Part shown: positions 2,069 through 3,826 of the stretch, in pieces
Numbering within the stretch: position 1 is the first letter of the stretch
Layout: the number at the start of each line of letters is the position of its first letter
Origin: Mucilaginibacter roseus
GTDB lineage: Bacteria > Bacteroidota > Bacteroidia > Sphingobacteriales > Sphingobacteriaceae
Assembly (NCBI RefSeq): GCF_021215455.1
Contig: NZ_JAJPWV010000005.1
Span: 124,001-188,000 of the forward strand
DNA: 64,000 bases
Direction of reading: 5' to 3'
Notes under the pieces: model-generated
The model's database searches: none
Told to the model about the DNA's origin: nothing
Seen by the model: the letters and a program-made list of their open reading frames with translations, nothing else
Made by a program: the position numbers and the translations under genes

Positions 2069-3058
2069 TTAATTTTCAATTAGGCGTTTAAAACTTACAA
2101 GTGCCTTTTTGTTCATCAGCGTTTCCTCCGCTTCATAGTAACAATCGGCAAAGCTTTTTTCCGGTTCGATGGTGCGGATCGCTAATGCCGCGTTACACAG
2201 CACCACATTATTTTGTGCCGATGTACCCTCACCTTTCAATACGGCGCTAAATATGCCTGCCGATTCGGCAACGGTATGCCCGCCTGCAATTTCCGCCGCG
2301 TTCAAACGTTCAAAGCCCAGGCTTTCAATATTATTGATCTTTTCGCCATCAGCAGAAAAGGTTTTAAAATCGCCTGTTAATGATACCTCGTCATAACCAT
2401 CCAATGCGTTTACAATGGTGTATTTTGCTTTTGATTGCTGGTACAAATAAGCATAGACCCTTGCCAGTTCCAGGTTAAAAACACCTACCAACTGATTTTT
2501 CGGCTTTGCCGGATTCACCAATGGGCCCAGCATGTTAAAAAATGTTTTTACTCCCAGTTCGCGGCGGATCGGCGCAACGGTTTTCATGGCCGGGTGAAAC
2601 AGTGGAGCATGTAAAAAGCAGATGTTGGCTTCGTCTGTATTACGTTTCAGGGTATCCTTATCATTGGTAAACTGATAGCCTAAATATTCCATCACGTTTG
2701 ACGATCCGCAACCAGACGATACACCGTAATTACCATGCTTGGCCACCTTATACCCCGCCCCTGCTACTACAAATGAGGCCAGGGTTGATATGTTGAAGGT
2801 GTCTTTACCATCTCCTCCGGTACCGCAAAGGTCAATCAATGTATCGTGCTCAATATCAACCGGCAGGCAAAGTTCAAGCATGGCATCGCGAAAGCCCTCT
2901 AACTCGCTCACGGTGATGCTGCGCATACAATAAGCCGTCATGAACGCGGCCATTTGCGATGTATTGTATTTACCCTGCGCAATATCGGTCAGTATTTCTT
3001 TCGACTGCTCGCGGGTAAAGGTTTTGTGCTCAAATAAATGATTTAATATCTGTTTCAT
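2069..3058 (-). CDS. trpD: Anthranilate phosphoribosyltransferase
   Basis: TrpD transfers the phosphoribosyl group of PRPP to anthranilate. The 329-residue protein has the helical N-terminal domain and the PRPP-binding GTGGDGKDTFNIST loop near residue 80, then KHGNYGVSSGCGSSNVME, which matches the conserved KHGNRavSSkcGsaD(V)LE region. It is the first structural gene of the operon; the ATG at 3058 begins nine bases after the T-run of the attenuator hairpin, so every transcript reaching it must pass that terminator. No trpE or trpG precedes it, so anthranilate synthase must be encoded elsewhere. Confidence 0.96.
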   Translation of the reverse strand: MKQILNHLFEHKTFTREQSKEILTDIAQGKYNTSQMAAFMTAYCMRSITVSELEGFRDAMLELCLPVDIEHDTLIDLCGTGGDGKDTFNISTLASFVVAGAGYKVAKHGNYGVSSGCGSSNVMEYLGYQFTNDKDTLKRNTDEANICFLHAPLFHPAMKTVAPIRRELGVKTFFNMLGPLVNPAKPKNQLVGVFNLELARVYAYLYQQSKAKYTIVNALDGYDEVSLTGDFKTFSADGEKINNIESLGFERLNAAEIAGGHTVAESAGIFSAVLKGEGTSAQNNVVLCNAALAIRTIEPEKSFADCYYEAEETLMNKKALVSFKRLIEN

Positions 3059-3066
3059 GTGCCAAC

Positions 3067-3096
3067 AAAAAAGGGTTGCCTTGTGGCAACCCTTCC
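3067..3096 (-). terminator. trp operon attenuator: intrinsic terminator hairpin (regions 3 and 4)
   Basis: On the minus strand a perfect 10-bp stem (AAGGGTTGCC at 3094-3085 with GGCAACCCTT at 3080-3071, loop ACAA) is followed at once by six T residues and then, nine bases later, the trpD ATG. A strong terminator inside the operon leader, after a Trp-rich leader peptide, is the hallmark of transcription attenuation. Its upstream arm also pairs with the sequence at 3122-3130 (separate entry), so terminator and antiterminator exclude each other. Confidence 0.92.
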
Positions 3097-3121
3097 TGAA
3101 TATTATTAAAAAAACAAAAAC

Positions 3122-3149
3122 GGAATTGCCTTACGATTACTCGTTAAGC
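3122..3149 (-). promoter_or_regulatory. trp leader regions 1 and 2: pause hairpin and antiterminator strand
   Basis: Minus-strand GCTTAACGA (3149-3141) can pair with TCGTAAGGC (3136-3128) in eight of nine positions around the loop GTAA: the 1:2 hairpin. Region 2 extends as GGCAATTCC (3130-3122), which pairs fully with GGAA and TTGCC of the terminator's 5' arm (3096-3085) with three bulged Gs: the 2:3 antiterminator. Region 1 begins at the last base of the third Trp codon, so a ribosome stalled for charged tRNA-Trp would cover it and free region 2. The pairing was worked out by eye; no folding program was run. Confidence 0.85.
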
Positions 3150-3184
3150 CACCACCAGTTATTGTTTAATACTATCGATTTCAT
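3137..3184 (-). CDS. trpL: trp operon leader peptide with three consecutive Trp codons
   Basis: A 15-codon reading frame, MKSIVLNNNWWWLNE, starts at the ATG at 3184 and stops at TAA (3139-3137), 78 bases before trpD. Codons 10-12 (3157-3149) are three adjacent TGG. Its product has no expected function of its own; translation of the Trp codons senses charged tRNA-Trp. The stop codon falls inside the loop of the 1:2 hairpin, exactly where leader peptides of ribosome-mediated attenuators usually end. The peptide is far too short for ordinary gene finders. The start lies within a few bases of the predicted transcription start, so this mRNA may be leaderless. Confidence 0.92.
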   Translation of the reverse strand: MKSIVLNNNWWWLNE

Positions 3185-3191
3185 TACGGCA

Positions 3192-3221
3192 CAAATATGT
3201 AAATATTTTTTTGAAATGCAA
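3192..3221 (-). promoter_or_regulatory. Bacteroidota-type promoter of the trp operon
   Basis: Minus-strand TTG (3221-3219), a 19-base spacer and CATATTTG (3199-3192) match the Bacteroidota consensus TTG-N19-TAnnTTTG with one mismatch in the -7 box. The same spacing occurs in the tRNA-Gly promoter of this window (16245-16274). Transcription would start around 3188-3185, at or just before the leader-peptide ATG. Confidence 0.7.
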
Positions 3222-3247: not shown

Positions 3248-3679
3248 TTATAATTTACTACCAATCAAAACCTCAAGGTCATTAATAGTAACAAATTCTG
3301 ATGACCTATAGAAATATATTGTTTGCTTTTTATTATCCTTTAGATAGATAATCTTAAGCAATTTTCTATTTCTCTTTTTATGCAGACTAAATGCTTTTTT
3401 TAAGCTAATGACATTTGTTGCAAGCACTTTTTCAGTTTTCTTAGTGAAGTAATTTTCCAGAAACAATGTCTTATTATCATAAAAAATTCGCCTGGATTTA
3501 AACACTAATCTTATTTGAGTCATGATCAAAATTAAAAATAAGCAGTACACAGAATTTTTAAAGTAGTTAGATACATTATCAGACATTATATTTTCAACAA
3601 ATAAAACGATCAAAATTGGACCTATAATCAAGCCAAAAAAACCTCTGTAAAAACGGCTATCAGATGATATTTTTATCAT
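3248..3679 (-). CDS. Small two-helix membrane protein of unknown function
   Basis: I do not recognise a named family. The 143-residue product (start MIKISSDSRF; an upstream TTG would add 14 residues that do not look coding) has two hydrophobic stretches at about residues 14-30 and 41-55 forming a hairpin in the membrane, then a basic, beta-strand-rich tail of about 85 residues. Layout and tail resemble bacterial PH-like or YcxB-like membrane proteins, such as the one at 29478-30014. The gene is AT-richer than its neighbours and lies alone between the trp promoter and the divergent dehydrogenase, which may indicate recent acquisition. Confidence 0.6.
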   Translation of the reverse strand: MIKISSDSRFYRGFFGLIIGPILIVLFVENIMSDNVSNYFKNSVYCLFLILIMTQIRLVFKSRRIFYDNKTLFLENYFTKKTEKVLATNVISLKKAFSLHKKRNRKLLKIIYLKDNKKQTIYFYRSSEFVTINDLEVLIGSKL

Positions 3680-3826
3680 GTTTAAATATAAGCCATTTAT
3701 TAGAGGTGTGAATGTGACCAATATTTATTTCCTTTTCAGAATCACAAATACTTATAATTAATATAATTTATTTAAAAGAAACCTATTCTATATCCGGGTG
3801 TTCATGATAAAACAAACTATTACACT

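Follow-up and report, generated by a model that had tools for sequence, protein, structure and literature searches.

TRAP and the T-box are known modes of trp gene regulation, and in the trpL leader of E. coli control codons are combined with the alternative RNA pairings 1:2, 2:3 and 3:4. In Bacteroidota, the closest described class is Bacteroid-trp (Rfam RF01692), which Weinberg et al. 2010 (PMC2864571) list in their Table 1, and a report on the transcriptome of Flavobacterium psychrophilum mentions strong clues of leader-peptide attenuation upstream of amino-acid operons (PMC9723704). Two other systems concern trp genes that are split over the genome. For Corynebacterium diphtheriae candidate attenuators were predicted at trpB1EDGC and trpB2A (PMC1262725), and the leader RNA rnTrpL of Sinorhizobium meliloti is reported to start at the ATG and to destabilise trpDC mRNA (PMC7298713). 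In a non-exhaustive search of the open-access literature we found no description of a trpD leader from the Sphingobacteriaceae.

The leader studied here stands before trpD of Mucilaginibacter roseus, in a stretch of 64,000 nucleotides that we call the window. With RF01692 it shares a leader ORF with Trp codons, an overlapping 1:2 helix and a place before a trp unit in Bacteroidota; however, the RF01692 matches that we found across the phylum stand before units containing trpE, whereas this leader precedes trpDFBA. The enterobacterial Trp_leader (RF00513, E. coli trpL) has the same logic but differs in promoter type and target gene. Like C. diphtheriae, the genome has two trp units, each with a candidate attenuator, although the phylum and the split (EGC and DFBA) are different, with GC-rich terminators as a further difference. 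As paired candidates were predicted earlier in C. diphtheriae, the two-attenuator arrangement is not new in kind. With the trpLE(G)/rnTrpL system of S. meliloti it shares split trp genes and, by prediction, a similar start at the leader ATG; there the trpE(G) leader RNA destabilises trpDC in trans, whereas here trpDFBA has a Trp leader of its own. The trpD leader is a genuine and well-supported regulator of a known kind. Its newer parts are the clade, the position at trpDFBA while trpE carries another leader, and the prediction of a near-leaderless start.

The genes behind the leader lie on the minus strand and were identified as trpD (anthranilate phosphoribosyltransferase, 2069-3058; TIGR01245, 307.8 bits, cut-off 199.05), trpF (phosphoribosylanthranilate isomerase, 1446-2066; best NCBIfam match NF002298, full length, 172.4 bits, below the cut-off of 215) and trpB (tryptophan synthase beta, 259-1446; TIGR00263, 589.9 bits). 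They are followed by trpA, which is mostly past the window edge (L054 2412-3215; TIGR00262, 237.6 bits, cut-off 102). The trp genes of this genome are split into trpEGC and trpDFBA, trpG and trpC being found behind trpE on another contig; the best NCBIfam match of trpE was TIGR00564 (anthranilate synthase I, 428.4 bits, below the cut-off of 517.7). According to a survey of trp operons, the split is usually into E-G-D-C and F-B-A, and in the part of its text available to us the E-G-C and D-F-B-A split does not appear (PMC2395257). Two ORFs here have unusual ends that resemble translated repeats: trpG as called (L053 4361-5065) at its N-terminus, THTSSPFRGPGGN, and a neighbour (L053 1057-2181) at its C-terminus, SPPKGETLTENGKPSDRQVSPLGEDLGG.

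All parts of the trpD leader are on the minus strand. Its promoter (3192-3221), as read from the sequence, is of the Bacteroidota type and consists of TTG at 3221-3219, a 19-nt spacer and a -7 box, CATATTTG, at 3199-3192. The leader ORF, MKSIVLNNNWWWLNE (3137-3184), has 15 codons between the ATG at 3184 and the stop codon TAA at 3139-3137 and is presumably translated; its three adjacent Trp codons at 3149-3157 would be the control codons. Region 1 (3141-3156), the 5' strand of the 1:2 hairpin in the consensus fold, overlaps the Trp codons, and region 2 (3122-3136) is the 3' strand, with the antiterminator half GGCAATTC at 3130-3123. Region 3, GGGTTGCC (3085-3092), can pair with either region 2 or region 4. 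The intrinsic terminator (3067-3094) has arms at 3094-3085 and 3080-3071 that form 10 pairs around the 4-nt loop ACAA, and its T run extends to 3067. The ATG of trpD is at 3058. A 157-aa ORF without an NCBIfam match lies immediately upstream of the leader (3248-3721, minus strand).

An earlier note on this DNA had described the same TTG-N19 promoter, the 15-codon peptide with three adjacent Trp codons and the 10-bp terminator stem with its T run, and all of these agreed with our reading. Its other details needed to be adjusted. The T run ends 8 bases before trpD and not nine; region 1, which was placed from the last base of the Trp codons, begins in the register obtained by comparison at 3156, the second base of the first Trp codon. 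The 1:2 hairpin is present and covaries, and in this register it has an A.A mismatch rather than a bulge. Complementarity for the 2:3 antiterminator is also kept, but the best reading is not nine pairs with a bulge: GGCAATTC and GGGTTGCC would form eight uninterrupted pairs, including two G.U pairs. Folding of the leader RNA, which the note had proposed as a check, gave -37.6 kcal/mol (z -4.20), and none of 200 shuffles was as good.

The leader is conserved together with trpD. A search for trpD in 60 genomes gave 36 Mucilaginibacter genomes with the gene, M. roseus included, and a short ORF with WW or WWW lay 5' of trpD in all 36; a 37th genome of the genus (G009, 58% complete) had no trpD match. 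When the best 80 of 584 trpD relatives in named genomes were scanned, TGGTGG followed by an intrinsic terminator was found 5' of trpD in 74 of 74 loci (L055-L128), labelled as Mucilaginibacter, Pedobacter, Sphingobacterium, Pelobium, Parapedobacter, Pararcticibacter and unclassified MAGs; L108 is near a contig end, with the start codon missing. For loci with a split trpD, adjacent Trp codons and then a terminator were present in 110 of 111, the sole exception being L131, from a Sphingobacteriaceae MAG, where trpDFB lacks a WW leader before trpD. The comparison of orthologous leaders suggested in the earlier note, which concerned the Trp codons and compensatory changes in the stems, was therefore favourable, with both the 1:2 and the 3:4 stems covarying.

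From these loci 110 leaders were extracted (99 distinct, some organisms being represented twice). Three Trp codons were found in 106 of them and two in the other 4, and in 110/110 the adjacent Trp codons were 76-94 nt upstream of the end of the terminator stem. The spacing from TTG to the box was 19-20 nt in 96 of the 106 scored leaders (4 of the 110 were unscored), and CATATTTG occurred in 80 of the 108 leaders having a -7 box. The stop codon fell anywhere from 12 to 42 nt downstream of the start of the last Trp codon, while the hairpin sequence was kept; thus, past the Trp codons it is the RNA, not the peptide, that looks conserved. Among 11 trpD loci of other families (L037-L047), 10 had no WW ORF in the stretch read, which for L040 included only 206 nt of upstream sequence; the WW ORF in L046 was taken as a chance occurrence. 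In L129, L130 and L132-L134, trpD is within an E-G-D-C-F-B operon and the WWW leader stands before trpE instead.

Covariation was analysed in an alignment of 69 leaders (68 distinct) out of the 110, with 41 left out. The consensus fold of these 69 has a 1:2 helix starting within the Trp codons and a terminator of 11 pairs. Standard pairs filled 96.7% of the cells in the 1:2 and 3:4 stems and at most 53.8% with slid partners, in a comparison where a structure derived from an alignment tends to beat its own slid versions. Changes on both sides were seen in 8 pairs and 54 cells, compared with 4.6 and 12.8 in the shuffles, and 0 of 500 shuffles reached the paired share, the both-side pairs or the both-side cells of these stems, a contrast inflated by the relatedness of the leaders. 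The number of pair types was weakly above that of the shuffles (28 versus 25.3, with 26 of 500 as high). The more telling part of the covariation, compared with these shuffle and slide statistics, is the set of double changes, from U-G to A-U at columns 44/63, from U-A to C-G at 45/62 and from A-U to C-G at 50/57.

For the putative 2:3 antiterminator, 91.0% of the cells could pair, compared with 23.9-55.8% for slid partners. Its covariation was not above that of the shuffles (2 cells versus 1.5; score 0.220 versus 0.241; 500 of 500 shuffles as high), which would be expected of a region 3 constrained by two partners. The predicted 2:3 pairing is therefore argued from complementarity, not from covariation. 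Compared with dinucleotide-shuffled spacers, 66 of 97 leaders had a stronger 2:3 duplex at the p<=0.05 level and 31 at p<=0.01; the p<=0.05 level was missed in 31 of the 97. The weakest duplexes were those of some Sphingobacterium and of a Pedobacter clade with GGCAAATTC, and the duplex of the window itself had p=0.06.

We then simulated a stalled ribosome by folding each leader at the stage where region 3 exists and region 4 does not. Three states were compared: no ribosome, a ribosome whose A site is on the last Trp codon, and one whose A site is on the stop codon; the downstream edge of the ribosome was assumed to lie at 14 nt. Over 97 leaders, the mean number of expected 2:3 pairs was 2.3 without a ribosome, 9.3 at the Trp codon and 2.0 at the stop codon, compared with 2.3, 3.3 and 2.0 in the shuffled controls. 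Among the real leaders 78 of 97 switched by 4 pairs or more, compared with 96 of 970 shuffled ones, and 94 of 97 real leaders were above the average of their own shuffles. With no ribosome, 32 of the 97 kept more than 2 expected 2:3 pairs. The modelled behaviour matches what attenuation would need, in that a stall at the Trp codons would free region 2, and completed or absent translation mostly would not. In the window, the values were 12.0 at the Trp codon, 6.0 at the stop codon and 1.9 for the free RNA, a contrast below the mean; 6.0 pairs were left at the stop codon because this codon is early. The leader had been called unusually clean, but it is typical of its family, and its 2:3 duplex and its stop-codon contrast are weaker than in most relatives.

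The best Rfam match of the leader at relaxed thresholds was RF01692, with 38.1 bits (cut-off 49), over the full length of the model (1-131) and with an E value of 0.0043 for a 321-base stretch. At the gathering threshold the window contained two tRNAs only, neither RF01692 nor a T-box; a search of the whole M. roseus genome with RF01692 was negative, and RF00513 was absent among the 16 Rfam matches up to E 10 for the leader stretch. The Rfam search for trp leader models proposed in the earlier note hence produced a match to RF01692, but one below threshold, and none to RF00513. The remark in that note that the class may be known was right, in view of this match and of relatives whose trpD leaders pass the cut-off. 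They include a Mucilaginibacter leader (G457, 53.4 bits, followed by trpD and trpF in L231) and two Sphingobacterium leaders (L117 and L121, 51.6 bits; 2 of 20 trpD loci scanned). The leader of the window is thus a sub-threshold member of RF01692.

Across the phylum, RF01692 matched 29 of 296 genomes, 27 of them over the cut-off; 27 matches were in one family (f26), one each in f31 and f22, and none in the Sphingobacteriaceae (f1), in a scan whose stricter filters lose weak matches. All 29 loci contained trpE, which adjoined the leader in 28 (in L203, trpB is between). Within the Sphingobacteriaceae, RF01692 matched 28 of 201 genomes at E<=0.001, 9 over the cut-off, and R1, a model built here from trpD leaders, matched 170 of 201 and left 31 without a match, both under similarly strict filters; the R1 figure is partly circular, as a share of these genomes also went into building the model, and it counts matches whatever lies downstream. 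Of 10 fetched Sphingobacteriaceae loci with an RF01692 match, trpD was downstream in 9 and the tenth ended at the contig end. The Bacteroid-trp class, which by the Rfam model is mainly found in f26 (27 of 29 matches), is extended by these leaders to the Sphingobacteriaceae.

The earlier note had contrasted a leader before trpD with one before trpE; the leader before trpD is real, but trpE also has a Trp leader. In M. roseus (contig C3, L053 2750-2915) this second leader has the ORF MIKITLLNNWWHHLILAAG, the -7 box TAAATTTG, the region 2 GGCAGCCGG and a terminator formed by CCCGGCGAA...TTCGACGGG (CCCGGCG). Trp codons and a terminator were found in 30 of 30 Mucilaginibacter trpE loci read, out of 36 Mucilaginibacter genomes that gave a strong trpE match (28 by ORF search and two near contig edges), and a loose region 2 pattern fitted 27 of the 30. 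The trpE leader of M. roseus was detected neither by RF01692 (E up to 5) nor by R1 (E up to 1), and its score with RF00513 was 14.9 bits, below the cut-off of 41. Since trpEGC carries a Trp leader too, each half of the pathway appears to be subject to candidate tryptophan attenuation, which suggests that the split pathway is held by two parallel attenuators. R1 had three further matches in the M. roseus genome. At C6:114298 (34.2 bits) and C2:648807 (32.8), 300 bases showed a terminator-like hairpin and no Trp leader, and these two were rejected; the third was at C1:954793 (26.1 bits). Scanning the genome for ATTTG-ATG-TGGTGG gave 39 matches, and the same scan with the pattern reversed, as a control, gave 66; by itself the pattern is therefore uninformative. 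The trpD and trpE leaders were the sole ones recognised among the 39.

The -7 box of F. psychrophilum is reported at -12 to -5, and 5.5% are given as leaderless in that species (PMC9723704). By this box position, the predicted start in the window falls near 3187, which is 3 nt ahead of the leader ATG. The same rule predicts a 5' UTR of at most 10 nt in 79 of the 106 scored trpD leaders, and in the trpE leaders (n=30) the distance from box to ATG is 7-12 nt, for a predicted 5' UTR of about 3-8 nt.

We consider it very probable that the trpD leader acts as a ribosome-mediated transcription attenuator and makes the transcription of trpDFBA depend on charged tRNA-Trp. RNA polymerase would start about 3 nt upstream of the leader ATG. 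When tryptophan is scarce, the ribosome would stall at the three Trp codons and cover region 1; region 2 would then pair with region 3, no terminator would form and trpDFBA would be transcribed. When tryptophan is ample, the ribosome would reach the stop codon and cover region 2 wholly or partly, leaving the 3:4 terminator to form, and in a leader that is not translated the 1:2 hairpin would form, with termination as the result again. The trpEGC unit would follow the same logic through its second leader, which has no detectable sequence similarity to the trpD leader. The layout agrees with the enterobacterial type named in the earlier note, as supported by the Trp codons, the covariation of 1:2 and 3:4, the complementarity of 2:3 and the stall switch. 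Termination in the cell and a response to tryptophan are what we would expect from this anatomy, its conservation, its homology to RF01692 and the switching in silico. Attenuation by a translating ribosome implies a working coupling of transcription and translation in Bacteroidota without Shine-Dalgarno sites.

A working attenuator of this kind would also produce a terminated leader RNA, and this RNA (or the peptide) might act mainly in trans, like rnTrpL and peTrpL of S. meliloti, with cis attenuation being secondary. The S. meliloti RNA, which destabilises trpDC mRNA, starts at the ATG (PMC7298713), and a near-leaderless start is predicted for the trpD leader too. However, the covariation and the stall-dependent switching fit control in cis, and because the trpE unit has a Trp leader of its own, the two units could be coordinated without a link in trans. 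We thus regard a mainly trans-acting role as improbable.

The stable terminator hairpin close to trpD could also belong to a plain promoter and terminator that insulate trpD from upstream transcription, the WWW peptide being a coincidence. A coincidence would hardly place adjacent Trp codons within 76-94 nt of the terminator stem end in every one of the 110 loci, nor would an insulator need a covarying 1:2 stem and 2:3 complementarity, and we give this explanation almost no credence. The same is true of a leader sensed by a protein or by tRNA, as in TRAP-like or T-box systems. Both are known to regulate trp genes, but the window has no T-box at the Rfam gathering threshold and the conserved element is a leader ORF with control codons, which makes such sensing extremely unlikely. 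It is conceivable, though we would sooner doubt than assume it, that the Sphingobacteriaceae keep trpEGC and trpDFBA in step via two dissimilar Trp attenuators whose ORFs begin a few nt past the start, and that such a near-leaderless start, without a Shine-Dalgarno site, may load the first ribosome fast enough.

Several features were seen around the leaders of other genomes. The loci with the WWW leader before trpE (L129, L130 and L132-L134) are from Algoriphagus, Litoribacter and a Cyclobacteriaceae MAG; the leader there reads WWWH, and in four of the five the terminator resembles GGCTTACTGG/CCGGTAAGC, L134 being different. The gap between terminator and trpD, which is 8 nt in this window, exceeds 60 nt in 47 of 110 loci. 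Elements of about 95-120 bp whose ends are inverted repeats with G and C runs (for example CCCCCTGAAGGGGG ... CCCCCTTTAGGGGG) lie between attenuator and trpD in several Mucilaginibacter (L003, L007, L014, L015, L018, L031, L057 and L069), and some of the long gaps have other repeats. An Rfam Flavo-1 RNA (50.4 bits) is located upstream of a Pedobacter trpD, at L090 1400-1539.
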